Assembly: GCA_025998755.1 (NCBI GenBank)
Contig: AP024674.1
Coordinates: 3,054,162 to 3,118,161 of the forward strand
DNA length: 64,000 bases
Origin: Armatimonadota bacterium
GTDB taxonomy: Bacteria > Armatimonadota > UBA5829 > DSUL01
Direction of reading: 5' to 3'
Each line of letters begins with the position of its first letter. Position 1 is the stretch's first letter. Shown in pieces: positions 16,601-44,135 of the stretch. The notes below the pieces were generated by a model. It was not told the origin of the DNA. It saw only the letters and a program-made list of their open reading frames with translations, and made no database searches. The translations under genes were made by a program, and so were the position numbers.

Positions 16601-16837
16601 GTGAACGAAATGCGCTCGCTTTACGCGTGGATCGGTACCATGCTCGCCACCTGCTGCTTTGCCGTGACGCTATTCGTCTGCGTGTCAGGGGGCCAGGATC
16701 TGCTGATCTCCGTCCTGAAGTCCATCGCCGTTTTCTTCGCAGTCCGCTACGTGGCGGGGGTATTCGGCGGGCTGGTGCTGTCTCTGGAGCAGGGGAGCAG
16801 GAGCGAGACTCCCGCCCCGGGTGAGGATGCCGGCTGA
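16601..16837 (+). CDS. 78-residue two-helix membrane protein of the flagellar operon
   Basis: A small protein starting at GTG, in line with the operon, with its stop codon overlapping the fliA start (TGATG). Two hydrophobic segments are clear: about residues 8-28 (WIGTMLATCCFAVTLFVCVS) and 33-58 (LLISVLKSIAVFFAVRYVAG). The short tail is acidic and Pro-rich. I do not recognise a family. The exact coupling to fliA and its place where flhG normally lies make a flagellar role likely, but this is inferred from position only. Confidence 0.65.
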   Translation: MNEMRSLYAWIGTMLATCCFAVTLFVCVSGGQDLLISVLKSIAVFFAVRYVAGVFGGLVLSLEQGSRSETPAPGEDAG

Positions 16838-17622
16838 TGGCTGTCACCACACGGACCGTTGACGCGCGCGATCTCTGGACGCGCTACAAAAGACAGGGCG
16901 ACGAAAACGCCCGCCTGGAGCTGATCGAGCGTTACGCTTATCTGGCGCGAGCGGGGGCCGAGCGGCTGCGCCTGCCGCCGCATGCCGCGTTTTCGCAGGA
17001 CGATCTTTACGGGTACGCCGTCCTGGGACTGATAGACGCCATCGAGAAATTCGACCCGGACAAGGGAAAGCCGTTCGAGGCGTATGCGCCGGTGCGCATC
17101 AGGGGGGCCATCTCCGACGCTTTGAGAGGCCTGGACTGGTTGCCCCGCTCGGTCCGTCAGAACGAGACCCGTCTTCGGGAGGCTATGGCGCGGATCGAGA
17201 TGCGCGAAGGACGCTCGGCCACCGACGCGGAGCTTTGCGCCGAACTCGGCATGAGCGAAGACGAGCTGGGGGATCTGTTGCAGGCGGCTAACGCATCGGC
17301 ACAGCAGAGTCTGGAAGAGATCATTTCCGAACTGGGAGACCTCAATTTTGCGGGGGTGGGCGCCGATAATTCCGGTACGGACCCCGAGCGGGCGGCGGAG
17401 AACTCGCAGGTCCGGCGGCTTCTGGTGGAGGCGATCGAAGAGCTGCCGGAAAACGAGAAGACCGTCATCAGTCTGTATTACTTCGAGGACCTGACGCTCA
17501 AGGAGATCGGCCGCGTGCTGGGGGTGACGGAGTCCCGGGCCTGTCAGTTGCACACCCGGGCGGTGCTGAAGCTGCAGACCCGGCTGGCCTGCTGGCTTGA
17601 TGTGATGTTCATGGCGGCGTAG
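16837..17622 (+). CDS. fliA: flagellar sigma factor FliA/SigD (sigma28 family)
   Basis: A 261-residue sigma factor that directs RNA polymerase to late flagellar genes. It contains region 2 (LIERYAYLARAGAERLRLPP, DDLYGYAVLGLIDAIEKFDP, GKPFEAYAPVRIRGAISDAL), the hallmark DWLPRSVR turn of the FliA/WhiG group, region 3 (AELCAELGMSEDELGDLLQA) and region 4 with a helix-turn-helix (LPENEKTVISLYYFEDLTLK, EIGRVLGVTESRACQLHTRA). The start overlaps the upstream small gene. An anti-sigma FlgM is not visible in the window. Confidence 0.96.
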   Translation: MAVTTRTVDARDLWTRYKRQGDENARLELIERYAYLARAGAERLRLPPHAAFSQDDLYGYAVLGLIDAIEKFDPDKGKPFEAYAPVRIRGAISDALRGLDWLPRSVRQNETRLREAMARIEMREGRSATDAELCAELGMSEDELGDLLQAANASAQQSLEEIISELGDLNFAGVGADNSGTDPERAAENSQVRRLLVEAIEELPENEKTVISLYYFEDLTLKEIGRVLGVTESRACQLHTRAVLKLQTRLACWLDVMFMAA

Positions 17623-39170: not shown

Positions 39171-40385
39171 CTACCAGACCAGTCCGTGAGTACCCTTCCA
39201 GCGGTGATCCTCGAACGGCCGGTTGTGGATGCCCAGCCAGATGTCCGTCAGGTCGCTTTCGCTCTTCAGGAGGAACATCAGGGAGTAGGCGCTGGTGCGC
39301 ATGTTGACGCATCGCCTGCCGCCGATGTCGGGCCGGCTCCCCTCGTAGCGACCCTTGACGCCACCGTCCAGACAGGGGTCTCCAGCGTTCAGAAACTGGG
39401 TGGCCAGCACCTTTCCTAGGGCACGGTCCGCGCATTGCAGGAGTTCCGGCTCGCCCAGAATGGTTCCAATGTCCCGGCAGAGCATCCCGCCCACCGGCGC
39501 CGCCGACGGATGCCGTCCGCCGGCGAAGCCACCGTCTTCGTCCTGCACCGACGCCAGCCATCGGGCGAACAGGGCAGCCTTCCGGATATAGGAATCGTCA
39601 CCGAACAGGCGGCTGGCGGCGATCATCATGGCTCCTCCGAAGTCGTCGTTCAGCGCGTGTTGGTGCTCGGTGGGATCCTCGCCCGGTCTCGGAGAGGTGA
39701 TGCAGTTCGTGAAGGGATCCCGCTCCAGAATCAACTGGCCGCTTTCCGTGATGAAATCGTCCCGGTAGATCTGGGCGATGGGAGCCAACCCCCGCTCGAT
39801 GTATTTCTGGTCGCCCGTGAGCATGAACAGATCGTGCAGAAACAGCCCGGCGCCGGACTGGAAGGATCCTCGGGAGTAGAAGTTCTCCAAGGAAGGGTCC
39901 ATGTAGACGGCGTACAGCGGCCAGCCTCGATACATTCCCTTCTCCACCAGCCAGTCCCCGAACAATCGCGCGCCCCGAAGGTAGACCTCCTGACCGGTGG
40001 CCTCCGCCAGCCACACCAGTCCCCACGCAGCGCTCGTGGCGTCCCGCGGAGCGAACTCGATGGACTGAGGTGTGATCTCCCGAATGGCTCCGAAATGCGG
40101 ATCGTCCCTGTCCATCACCTGCAGGGAGAGGATGTAGCGTCCCGCCAACTCGGCCCCGCGGAGATACTGCTCCTCGCCCGTGCGCTTCCACATCGCGAGC
40201 AGCCCGCACAGGAACGATCCCGTCATCCAGTTTCCGGTGAGGACCTTCTCGCCGGTGTCTGCGTCATAGAAACGGATGCTGCGGCCGCGGTTCGCATCGA
40301 ACCGGTCCGTCACCTGGTTGCGCAGCATCCAGCCGGCCAGCAGCCGGGCGCGCTCGAGAAGCAGGTTCCTGTCGTGAACGGTCAT
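39171..40385 (-). CDS. alpha/alpha-barrel-like protein of unknown function, probable glycosidase fold
   Basis: A 404-residue cytoplasmic protein. ATG at 40385 follows GAGGAG. The text repeats helical pairs typical of six-hairpin barrels: TGNWMTGSFLCGLLAMWKRT, SAAWGLVWLAEATGQEVYLR, GSFQSGAGLFLHDLFMLTGD, FGGAMMIAASRLFGDDSYIR. Such folds belong to glycoside hydrolases and related enzymes, but I see no family-specific catalytic motif. It follows the propeller-type gene at 40399 by 13 nt and is probably in its operon. Confidence 0.65.
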   Translation of the reverse strand: MTVHDRNLLLERARLLAGWMLRNQVTDRFDANRGRSIRFYDADTGEKVLTGNWMTGSFLCGLLAMWKRTGEEQYLRGAELAGRYILSLQVMDRDDPHFGAIREITPQSIEFAPRDATSAAWGLVWLAEATGQEVYLRGARLFGDWLVEKGMYRGWPLYAVYMDPSLENFYSRGSFQSGAGLFLHDLFMLTGDQKYIERGLAPIAQIYRDDFITESGQLILERDPFTNCITSPRPGEDPTEHQHALNDDFGGAMMIAASRLFGDDSYIRKAALFARWLASVQDEDGGFAGGRHPSAAPVGGMLCRDIGTILGEPELLQCADRALGKVLATQFLNAGDPCLDGGVKGRYEGSRPDIGGRRCVNMRTSAYSLMFLLKSESDLTDIWLGIHNRPFEDHRWKGTHGLVW

Positions 40386-40398
40386 TTTCTCCTCGCCG

Positions 40399-41862
40399 TC
40401 AGGGATACACTGCGAACAGGCGGGTCGCCCGGCTCTCCAGAAGTAGCCTGACTGTCTGCCCCGCGAGGTTGCTCAAGTCCGCACGGCCATTCCATCGGAC
40501 CGGCATCCGGGTGCTGTTTCCCTGGATGCGCCCGCACTCTTCCAGGGTGCATCCATCCACGGGTGCTCCGTCCTCTCGGAGCAGGGCGGCTCGCGCCACA
40601 CCGCTTGCCGATGTGTCGATGTTCAGGCAGAGCCCGGGCGAACGCAGCCGGAAGGGACGCGTCACCAGCCGCCCCCCGGTGTAAGAGCTTTCCGCACATA
40701 CGAACCCGTCCATCCGCTGTTCCAGACGCAGGGCGATCGGGTCGCCGTAATGCGTCTCGTGGACCACCCTGACATCTTTGTCTGTCCGGCCTTCCCCGTG
40801 GCTGCGACGGCTACCTACGTAGTACTGATGCACGCGGCCGTCGCCTGGGACCATCCCGGCCAGCATGTGCATCATCTTGGATGCCGGGCCGTCCGGCAGG
40901 TCCAGCCGCACGTACGGATCCCGGAGATCGCGATTCCAGCACACTCCGTCCCGGCTGCTGGCAAACTGGATGTCCAGCAATCCGTCATTGATAAACTGTC
41001 CCTCGGGCGGCCAGGGGTAGGTGAAGTAGAAGCTGGGGAAGGCCACGTAGACGTCCGGAAGGTAATGCACCACCGCCGCCTGGTACAATCCGCCCTGCTC
41101 CGGGTCATTTTCGTCGCAGGCAAGCACGATGGGAAGCTCGCGGTTCAGGCGGCGGATGCCTCTCCACTCGGTATTGAGCCACTTGGGCTGAGGCTCCCAA
41201 GGGTCCGGTGCGTCCTCATCAACGGGAATAGGCTTCGAAAGGTCTGCCGTCTCCGCCATTACGACGCAGCGAGTGCCCGGCATTGGAGGGATCCCGCGGC
41301 TCCTGTCCCAGCCCCGCGTATAGATGCGGTAACGCCGGGCGCGCTCATCGTAGAACGCAGTCATATGGTTGTCCAAGATGAACCGCAGCAGATGTCCCGG
41401 CTGGCGCGTGAAGCGGATGCCATCCGGCGAGGTGAAGAGGAACATCCCACCCTGAGAGGGCGAGTGCGCCACCAGCTTGAAGCGTGACTCATCCGGCGCA
41501 GCGGGGTCCACGAAGACGCAGCTCTCGTTGAATGGATGATTCTGGACATCCACCAGATTGTTCCGGCGATGGCCGTTGAACTCCACCGATCCCACCTCCG
41601 GGCGCTCCCATTGGACGCCGTCGCGGGACACGGCAAAAGCCATGCAGTGGCGCCCGTCCGGCAGCGTCACCTCGTAGTACAGTCGGAACTCGTCCTCCAC
41701 CCTTAGGATGCTGCTGCCACGCACACCGCCCAGCTCCCAGTCCTCTTCCACCACCAGGCAAGGGCCGCGCTTCACCGGAGAATGCAGGCACAGGCGGATG
41801 CCTTCGGCATCTTCCCAGTCGCCGCGTTCCAGGAAAAGAATCCGTCCGTCATCGAATACCAA
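40399..41862 (-). CDS. beta-propeller protein resembling GH43/GH32-type glycosidases
   Basis: A 487-residue protein starting at TTG 41862. No signal peptide. Repeated blade-like text is visible: EFRLYYEVTLPDGRHCMAFA, RFKLVAHSPSQGGMFLFTSP, DGIRFTRQPGHLLRFILDNH, VHQYYVGSRRSHGEG. The five-bladed fold is common in GH43/GH32/GH130-type enzymes. The C-terminal 110 residues form a separate beta domain. It is transcribed from the divergent promoter at 41948-41956. Reaction and substrate unknown; a relative of proteins from Planctomycetes-type sugar clusters is likely. Confidence 0.65.
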   Translation of the reverse strand: MVFDDGRILFLERGDWEDAEGIRLCLHSPVKRGPCLVVEEDWELGGVRGSSILRVEDEFRLYYEVTLPDGRHCMAFAVSRDGVQWERPEVGSVEFNGHRRNNLVDVQNHPFNESCVFVDPAAPDESRFKLVAHSPSQGGMFLFTSPDGIRFTRQPGHLLRFILDNHMTAFYDERARRYRIYTRGWDRSRGIPPMPGTRCVVMAETADLSKPIPVDEDAPDPWEPQPKWLNTEWRGIRRLNRELPIVLACDENDPEQGGLYQAAVVHYLPDVYVAFPSFYFTYPWPPEGQFINDGLLDIQFASSRDGVCWNRDLRDPYVRLDLPDGPASKMMHMLAGMVPGDGRVHQYYVGSRRSHGEGRTDKDVRVVHETHYGDPIALRLEQRMDGFVCAESSYTGGRLVTRPFRLRSPGLCLNIDTSASGVARAALLREDGAPVDGCTLEECGRIQGNSTRMPVRWNGRADLSNLAGQTVRLLLESRATRLFAVYP

Positions 41863-41921
41863 AGCAGGGTGATCTCCGGGCTGTTTCTGAAGGATTTCGC
41901 GGGGAAGTTCCGCTTCCCCTC

Positions 41922-41956
41922 TTGAAATGGTGGAGAAAGGTGGTATTATTATACCA
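41922..41956. promoter_or_regulatory. divergent promoter pair with palindromic operator
   Basis: Plus strand: TTGAAA (41922-41927), 16-nt spacer, TATTAT (41944-41949). Minus strand: a perfect TATAAT at 41953-41948, preceded by TGG (extended -10). Both -10 boxes sit inside the palindrome TGGTAT-TATT-ATACCA (41941-41956). A regulator bound there would block the propeller gene (minus) and the prepilin gene (plus) together. The downstream leaders are about 75-85 nt. Confidence 0.6.
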
Positions 41957-42030
41957 TTCCGCGAGACGGCCCTGCGGCACCCCTGCTGCCGGTCCGCTGG
42001 GTTCTTGCAAGCGAGAAAGGGGGCATCGAG

Positions 42031-42738
42031 TTGAAGCGCACCAGGCCATCTGGCTTCACATTGATCGAGTTGCTAGTGGTCATTGCCATCATCGCCATCC
42101 TGGCGGCCATCCTCTTTCCGGTGTTCGCCAACGCCCGGGCACGCTCTCGCACTGCCCGATGCGCGGCCCATCAGAAGGAGCTGATGCAATCGGTGATGAT
42201 GTATATGGACGACTACAAGGACCGCCTCCCCAGCTACCAGTATCTGAGCTGGCGCGGGGACCTTCCGCCGCTTTACTTCCCTTACGTGAAGGACCATAAC
42301 ATCACCATCTGCTCCGAGAAGATGGCCTATGCGTGGAATGAGTGCCTGGTGGATTGGCCGCTGGCGTCGGATTTCTACGCAGACAGGCGCGGAGGGACTC
42401 CGGAACTGCAGGTCCACCCGCCGCTCTACGTGCTGCCTCCCCAGAGCAAGGGTCGGCCTATGAGCACCATCCACTCTCCTGCCGCCACGCCGGCCTTTAT
42501 GTGCTCATTTCGGCACCACGTGGGTCCGGACGGGAGGGCTCGCGGCTACGGTTGGGGGGCAGATGACGCCATCAATCCCAGCCGGATGCTGAACAATCAC
42601 CAGGGCGGTGCGAACTACGCCTTTCTGGACGGGCATGTTCAGTGGTACCGCCCCCAGAACGCCAAAATCCTGATGCCCACGAAGGGATTGGACTACGATG
42701 GGGACGGCACGTTCGGAGACGAGACGGTGATGCGTTGA
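42031..42738 (+). CDS. prepilin-type N-terminal methylation domain protein
   Basis: A 235-residue pseudopilin-like protein with TTG start after AAAGGGGG. The N-terminus RTRPSGFTLIELLVVIAIIA is a classic class III prepilin signal: cleavage after Gly and methylation of the new Phe are expected. The rest (RTARCAAHQKELMQSVMMYM) and the C-terminal segment NHQGGANYAFLDGHVQWYRP match the DUF1559-like or H-X9-DG group common in Planctomycetes and Armatimonadetes. The sulfatase gene overlaps its stop (TGATG). It is likely to be part of a surface pseudopilus or secreted product; function uncertain. Confidence 0.88.
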   Translation: MKRTRPSGFTLIELLVVIAIIAILAAILFPVFANARARSRTARCAAHQKELMQSVMMYMDDYKDRLPSYQYLSWRGDLPPLYFPYVKDHNITICSEKMAYAWNECLVDWPLASDFYADRRGGTPELQVHPPLYVLPPQSKGRPMSTIHSPAATPAFMCSFRHHVGPDGRARGYGWGADDAINPSRMLNNHQGGANYAFLDGHVQWYRPQNAKILMPTKGLDYDGDGTFGDETVMR

Positions 42739-44135
42739 TGAGCCGCGAGGCCACTCTATCCCGCCGGCGTTTCGTTCAGGGTGCGACAGCCGCCGCTGCA
42801 CTTCCCCTGTTCGGGATTCGTGCGAGGGCAGGGGAGCGTCCCCCGAACTTTGTTTTCATCCTGACGGACGACCAGCGCCACGACACGCTGAGCTGCACCG
42901 GGCATCCCTTCCTGCACACTCCCCGGCTGGATCGCCTGGCGCGGGAAGGCGCCTTGTTTGAGAATGCCTTTGTCACAACGGCTCTCTGCTCGCCCAGCCG
43001 CGCCAGTTTTCTGACCGGGCAGTACGCCCATCGCCACGGGGTGCGGGACAACAATACACCGTTTCCGGCAGACGCCCGGACATTCCCGAGCATTCTACGG
43101 GAGCACGGCTACCGCACGGCGTTCATCGGCAAGTGGCATATGGGCACCCAGGAGGGCCCGCAGCCCGGTTTCGATCACTGGGTCTCGTTTCCCGGCCAGG
43201 GTGTGTACCGCAACCCTTTGCTTAACATCAACGGGGAAACGAAGCGCGTCCCCGGATATATCACCGACATCCTGACCGACCTCGCGGTGCAATGGCTGCG
43301 GGAGCAAGCTGCGGGGCCGTTCTGTCTGTATCTGTCCCATAAGGCTGTGCATTCGGATTTCATCCCGGCGCACCGGCACTCGGGACTCTTCACGGACACG
43401 GTTCTCGAGCCTCCCGCCTCCATCCACGATACGCTTGAGGGCAAGCCAGAGTGGCTGCGGCAGGTCAAGCGCGCAGGGCCGGGAGCAGAATACCAAGAGA
43501 TGGCGCAGCTGGTGCGCAACTACTGCCGCTGCCTGGTGGCGGTGGATGAGAGTGTTGGGCGAGTCATGCGGACGCTGCAGGACGGGGGCGTTCTGGATAG
43601 CACGCTGGTGGCGTTCGCGGGCGACAACGGCTTTTTCTTCGGCGAGCACGGGCTAGGCGACAAGCGCGCGATGTACGAGGAGGCTATCCGCATCCCGCTC
43701 CTGATGCATTTCCCGGCTCTCATCCGTCCCGGCTTGCGGGTCCGCGAGATGGCCCTGAACATTGACCTGTGCCCCACATTCCTGGACCTGGCGAGTGTGC
43801 CAGTTCCCGAAGGCGTGCAGGGACGTTCGCTTCGTCCTCTCCTTGGCGGGCGCAATATCTCATTGCGGGATGAGTTCCTCTACGAGTATGACTGGGAGCC
43901 GGATGCGAGGCGCCGGCCAGCGATTCGGGGTGTCCGCACTCGAAGATGGAAATACATCGAATATCCCGGCACCGCCAACATTCCGGAGTTGTACGACCTT
44001 GGCACCGATCCGCTGGAGCTGCACAACATCGCGTATTTTCAGCCCGGAACCCGCGTTGAGCAAGAGATGAAGGAGCGATTGCGCCGCTTGACGCAGGGAA
44101 CTCCGCCCCCACGCACCGGTCCGGCAAATACCTGA
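42738..44135 (+). CDS. Tat-exported sulfatase
   Basis: A 465-residue alkaline phosphatase-superfamily arylsulfatase-type enzyme. ATG 42738 overlaps the prepilin stop. The N-terminus has a twin-arginine signal (SRRRFVQGATAAAALPLFG). PNFVFILTDDQRHDT gives the metal-binding Asp pair. CSPSR (Cys84) is the formylglycine site used by the maturation enzyme; its sulfatase-modifying factor is not in the window. FIGKWHMG carries further active-site residues, and the second metal site includes AFAGDNGFF. Likely acts on sulfated polysaccharides outside the inner membrane, in line with the nearby glycosidase-like genes. Confidence 0.93.
   Translation: MSREATLSRRRFVQGATAAAALPLFGIRARAGERPPNFVFILTDDQRHDTLSCTGHPFLHTPRLDRLAREGALFENAFVTTALCSPSRASFLTGQYAHRHGVRDNNTPFPADARTFPSILREHGYRTAFIGKWHMGTQEGPQPGFDHWVSFPGQGVYRNPLLNINGETKRVPGYITDILTDLAVQWLREQAAGPFCLYLSHKAVHSDFIPAHRHSGLFTDTVLEPPASIHDTLEGKPEWLRQVKRAGPGAEYQEMAQLVRNYCRCLVAVDESVGRVMRTLQDGGVLDSTLVAFAGDNGFFFGEHGLGDKRAMYEEAIRIPLLMHFPALIRPGLRVREMALNIDLCPTFLDLASVPVPEGVQGRSLRPLLGGRNISLRDEFLYEYDWEPDARRRPAIRGVRTRRWKYIEYPGTANIPELYDLGTDPLELHNIAYFQPGTRVEQEMKERLRRLTQGTPPPRTGPANT

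Follow-up and report, generated by a model that had tools for sequence, protein, structure and literature searches.

The closest described relatives of the element reported here are the bidirectional sigma-70 promoters that share a -10 region, for which the portions of PMC10268837 on start geometry give 18 bp as the most frequent spacing between the two transcription starts, and those of PMC12825309 add 10 and 23 bp as further common spacings. The section of the latter source on acrA/acrR also describes how AcrR lowers both RNAs at the bidirectional promoter that these two genes share. A literature search that combined Armatimonadetes or Armatimonadota with transcription start sites or promoters found nothing. 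Here we describe a comparable arrangement in a 64-kb stretch of DNA (64,000 nucleotides, referred to as the window) from an Armatimonadota bacterium, in which a palindrome is probably the core of an ordinary bidirectional sigma-A promoter serving a glycan/sulfatase cluster.

The 16-base palindrome, TGGTATTATTATACCA, lies between two divergent gene clusters and is symmetric at 14 of its 16 positions, with perfect 6-bp arms flanking TATT (Table 1). A sequence-only reading of the window had proposed that one palindrome covers both -10 boxes of divergent promoters, within a range (41922-41956) that begins at the plus-strand -35 TTGAAA, and this description is correct. Both the plus-strand TATTAT and a perfect minus-strand TATAAT with an extended -10 are present, and the genes are laid out as had been supposed, the propeller-like gene on the minus strand and the prepilin gene followed by the sulfatase gene on the plus strand. 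The opposite-strand hexamers overlap (41944-41949 on plus, 41948-41953 on minus). In a promoter scan of positions 40000-44000 the plus promoter reached 10 of 12 matches, with the TG, and no further promoter-like site was seen in the gap between the divergent genes; the minus TGG-TATAAT has no -35-like hexamer at a spacing of 16-18. From the predicted starts the leader would measure 75 nt on the prepilin side and 79 nt on the propeller side. The two predicted starts are 15 bp apart, a geometry that places an A at each of them and that does not include the T at -18. The plus strand also offers an alternative TATTAT hexamer at 41947-41952, from which the predicted start would be 41959 (a C) and the spacing 18 bp, with the T at -18 present on one strand as read by hand.

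Table 1. Genes and predicted promoter elements around the palindrome (window coordinates).
Feature	Position	Strand	Basis or remark
404-aa protein downstream of the propeller gene	39171..40385	-	weak six-hairpin glycosidase resemblance
Propeller-like protein, 487 aa, TTG start	40399..41862	-	weak profile match, beta-1,2-mannan phosphorylases
Predicted -35 of the prepilin promoter, TTGAAA	41922..41927	+	16 bp ahead of TATTAT
Palindrome, arms TGGTAT and ATACCA around TATT	41941..41956		sequence
Predicted extended -10 of the prepilin promoter, TGG-TATTAT	41941..41949	+	promoter scan; predicted start A 41956
Predicted extended -10 of the propeller promoter, TGG-TATAAT	41948..41956	-	predicted start A 41941
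Prepilin-like protein, TTG start	42031..42738	+	N-terminal methylation motif and H-X9-DG motif
Sulfatase (PF00884)	42735..44135	+	overlaps the prepilin gene end

The propeller-like protein shows no significant Pfam family, and its match to the profile of beta-1,2-mannan phosphorylases is weak (E 6e-8 over about 50 residues), as is the resemblance of the 404-aa protein to six-hairpin glycosidases (E 0.008). The TTG start of the propeller gene is supported because six homologues (five in relatives and one paralogue) have their start codon at the corresponding residue.

The palindrome alone is not remarkable because inverted repeats of such size are common, with 40 of the 6-N4-6 form in the window; its promoter content is. 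Among these repeats TGGTATTATTATACCA is by far the most AT-rich (12/16, the next being 9/16), and TATAAT occurs a single time in the 64 kb, both strands counted, inside the palindrome. The form TGnTATnAT is found twice on the plus strand and once on the minus strand, and an opposed pair of TGnTAnnnT sites no more than 40 bp apart is found only once, against about 0.09 expected by a hand calculation from the 9 sites on the plus strand and 16 on the minus strand. The exact TGGTATN4ATACCA is likewise present once in the window, where shuffles allowing up to 2 mismatches give an expectation of 0.22. The sequence-only reading had looked to further copies across the genome, and the search returned one exact copy in 3.29 Mb and no second. 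Near matches with up to 2 mismatches were not enriched in the genome (28 versus 30 for the control), and a regulon was rejected after five of 27 near matches had been read in context, three of them in long ORFs and two between ORFs. The same genome gave 52 prepilin matches, nearly all through the N-terminal segment. A common prepilin promoter was also rejected, as the palindrome is found only at the window's gene among 38 N-terminus rows from 30 loci of this genome; two of the prepilin rows, which represent one gene seen in two loci, carry TGGTATAAT without the palindrome. Elsewhere in the host (G000:C1 about 2940858-2941688; L095 1859-2689) translations repeat IIAHRRNGGGYN with variable stretches between, in what looks like a CRISPR array.

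In the bidirectional promoter that we favour, two extended -10 boxes on opposite strands would share two hexamer bases, so that RNA polymerase could load in either orientation: toward the prepilin-sulfatase pair with the aid of the TTGAAA -35, or toward the propeller operon with nothing more than the perfect extended -10. Both promoters would be active from starts at or near those predicted, and loading one way would presumably exclude the other, leaving the two arms to compete for one entry point. The palindrome would then result from the -10 boxes themselves, with no need for a dedicated repressor. Boxes whose hexamers share two bases in this way form the self-complementary TGNTATNATNATANCA, and therefore a palindrome need not mean a repressor. 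This is a trap, because a palindrome over two -10 boxes resembles an operator, yet extended -10 boxes that overlap in this way are bound to be palindromic, and therefore what can inform on a repressor is confined to the free positions and to the sequence outside the boxes. Here 12 of the 14 symmetric positions belong to the extended -10 consensus, which leaves the G and C at positions 3 and 14 as the sole symmetric pair outside it. The genome's best match to RpoD shares with E. coli sigma-70 the residues Q437, T440, W433, W434, R451, H455 and E458, which we take to be those that recognize the -10 and extended -10 elements. As a separate observation, the window itself contains a match to the C-terminal family of RpoD (E 4.9e-18, G000:C1:3071163-3071741), at about 17002-17580 on the plus strand within the ORF 16837-17622 (coordinates converted by hand), and an alternative sigma-70-family factor is found about 25 kb from the palindrome.

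Several points count against a bidirectional promoter. The predicted 15-bp spacing is not among the common spacings, unless the alternative hexamer (18 bp) is used. The related element in G019, described below, keeps both arms despite a separate promoter and need not be the main -10 there, and the comparable prepilin orthologue of G002 is, by its upstream sequence, without such a promoter.

Across the phylum, the double box TGNTATNATNATANCA was found at 44 sites in 31 of 291 genomes, versus 10 for the reversed pattern (binomial p 1.7e-6). Using crude ORF calls (the longest non-overlapping ORFs), 21 of these sites fall in ORFs and 23 outside, where random positions give 91% and 9%; the 23 comprise 9 divergent, 12 tandem, 1 convergent and 1 at an edge, so that divergent sites make up 9/44 against 3.7% of random positions. 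AT-rich intergenic DNA inflates the intergenic share and explains part of this placement. The excess of the double box suggests that bidirectional promoters are in use in this little-studied lineage. The free positions 3 and 14 are complementary in 9/44 sites where 11.6 are expected, so that the sites in general show no symmetry outside the boxes themselves. With a 124-aa ORF over the L081 site judged spurious by eye, every one of the five G3/C14 sites is intergenic (5/5 versus 18/39, p 0.05); uncorrected, 4/5 are (p 0.35). If that one ORF call is so corrected, the tendency counts against a promoter-only reading. The L081 intergenic region (1580-1690) also contains a stretch of about 28 bases, GGGGAGGGCGAGGCGCCTGCCGAGCCGA, present twice.

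The arms TGGTAN6TACCA without a fixed -10 centre were not enriched in 61 genomes (78 versus 112 in the control). For the stricter TGGTATTATNNTACCA there are 8 sites, spread over 7 of the 291 genomes, and none for its control. Apart from the window and its G019 counterpart, these sites have unrelated neighbours: Rrf2 and hcp-like genes (two genomes), a response regulator, a symporter that faces an oxidoreductase, an FmdB-like gene and a region with a prepilin gene further off, several of these gene names being ones that we presume from the sequence.

Close orthologues of the prepilin gene were found only in G002, G003 and G019 among the 291 genomes searched, the matches in ten further genomes being far weaker (E 1e-10 to 1e-13). 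The G003 contig ends inside the gene, and the G002 orthologue has neither the palindrome nor a TATAAT-like hexamer within 400 bases. In G019, which belongs to another family of the class, TGGTATTATACTACCA stands about 67 nt before the prepilin start, identical at 14/16 positions, and again lies between divergent genes, with a BNR-repeat gene opposite. When 90 distinct stretches upstream of prepilin genes are scored for the palindrome, the window reaches 16 and G019 14, followed by two others at 13; the rest score at most 12, most of them 8-11. The expectation of the sequence-only reading that the palindrome would precede orthologues is thus borne out at one of the two comparable prepilin loci (G019 and not G002) and at none of the six loci read for propeller homologues. 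G001 (same genus, 69% complete) gave no match to the intergenic stretch among the matches listed; those matches cover only the prepilin N-terminus, and its propeller contig begins at residue 283. As to gene content, G019 (L046 5925-7480) has two tandem prepilin orthologues and then a URO-D family protein, opposite the BNR-repeat gene.

A possible, if rather unlikely, alternative is that a dimeric repressor encoded elsewhere binds TGGTA-N6-TACCA, shuts both promoters and so links the glycan and sulfatase genes. An inverted repeat does overlap the core promoter, and the 14/16 copy before the G019 prepilin pair ranks second of the 90 upstream stretches, after the window itself. At that single locus a consensus promoter, TTGACA-N17-TATAAC, stops 5 bases short of the palindrome, which therefore would lie over the likely start region, where operators lie; a -10 there could do without the right arm, unless TGG-TAGTAT serves as the minus box. 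Positions 3 and 14 stay symmetric in G019, which would suit a repressor, and the two changes fall at positions 10 and 11. These we take to be weakly conserved positions of the minus -10, and therefore a conserved two-way promoter explains the changes too. Against a repressor stand the genome without a second exact copy or an excess of near matches (a single-target regulator would be compatible with this), the lack of any transcription factor among the 16 window proteins scanned, the arms that alone are not enriched in the 61 genomes, and the comparable orthologue in G002 without the site.

The occurrence of TGGTATTATAATACCA directly before an Rrf2 regulator gene in G146 and G070 also speaks for an operator. 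Rrf2 itself, however, was ruled out as the regulator, since G019 has no Rrf2 by PF02082. In G016, TGGTAATGTAATACCA precedes an Rrf2 gene, and in all three genomes Rrf2 is adjoined by a gene that we presume to be hcp-like. These elements, TGGTATTATAATACCA (L078 and L079, 1501-1516) and TGGTAATGTAATACCA (L086, 3395-3410), before or at the Rrf2 starts, form a candidate Rrf2 operator in the phylum in their own right. UxuR-like operators have the form TGGTATACCA, and such a site was rejected for its shorter spacing. It is doubtful, in our estimation, that the palindrome is a conserved operator-promoter, in which the two extended -10 boxes would double as the site of an undescribed candidate regulator that links a pseudopilin with the carbohydrate-processing genes opposite it in at least two families of this uncultured class.

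It is highly improbable that only one strand holds a real promoter, most likely plus with its -35, the minus TATAAT being incidental and transcription of the propeller operon beginning elsewhere: the minus box does stand without a -35, and divergent RNA is often non-coding at the bidirectional promoters covered in the relevant part of PMC10268837, but the box is a perfect TGG-TATAAT, the sole TATAAT in 64 kb, placed ahead of a homologue-supported start in a gap that yielded no other promoter-like site.

Under a bidirectional promoter, the locus would join the prepilin-sulfatase pair to the glycan operon via one predicted shared entry point. Judged by gene content, the two arms plausibly belong to a single functional cluster, because G011 (L012) has a sulfatase, a propeller orthologue and a second sulfatase in succession on one strand, the second sulfatase being 56% identical to that of the window. 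Shared control is plausible because the window has glycan and sulfatase functions on both sides of one promoter core. The sequence-only reading had gone further, to one bound repressor that would shut off both the propeller gene and the prepilin-sulfatase pair as a compact switch for the cluster. Anything bound to the palindrome, RNA polymerase included, would block both directions, and the arms may well form such a cluster; the repressor itself is unsupported, with no site family in the genome and no regulator among the 16 window proteins scanned.

That proposal shares its logic with AcrR at acrA/acrR, where, as far as the relevant section of PMC12825309 goes, one repressor acts on both RNAs of a shared promoter. 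Unlike the window, in which none of the 16 proteins scanned is a transcription factor, that system has a known repressor, encoded by one of the two genes. The nearer likeness is to the bidirectional sigma-70 promoters with a shared -10, as characterized in the pertinent parts of PMC10268837 and PMC12825309: the palindrome has the same opposed and overlapping -10 boxes, the near-symmetric AT-rich core, the A at each start (here predicted) and a divergent direction of transcription. It differs from them in that its starts are predicted to lie 15 bp apart (18 bp if the alternative hexamer is used), and in that both boxes are extended -10s, which lengthens the symmetry.
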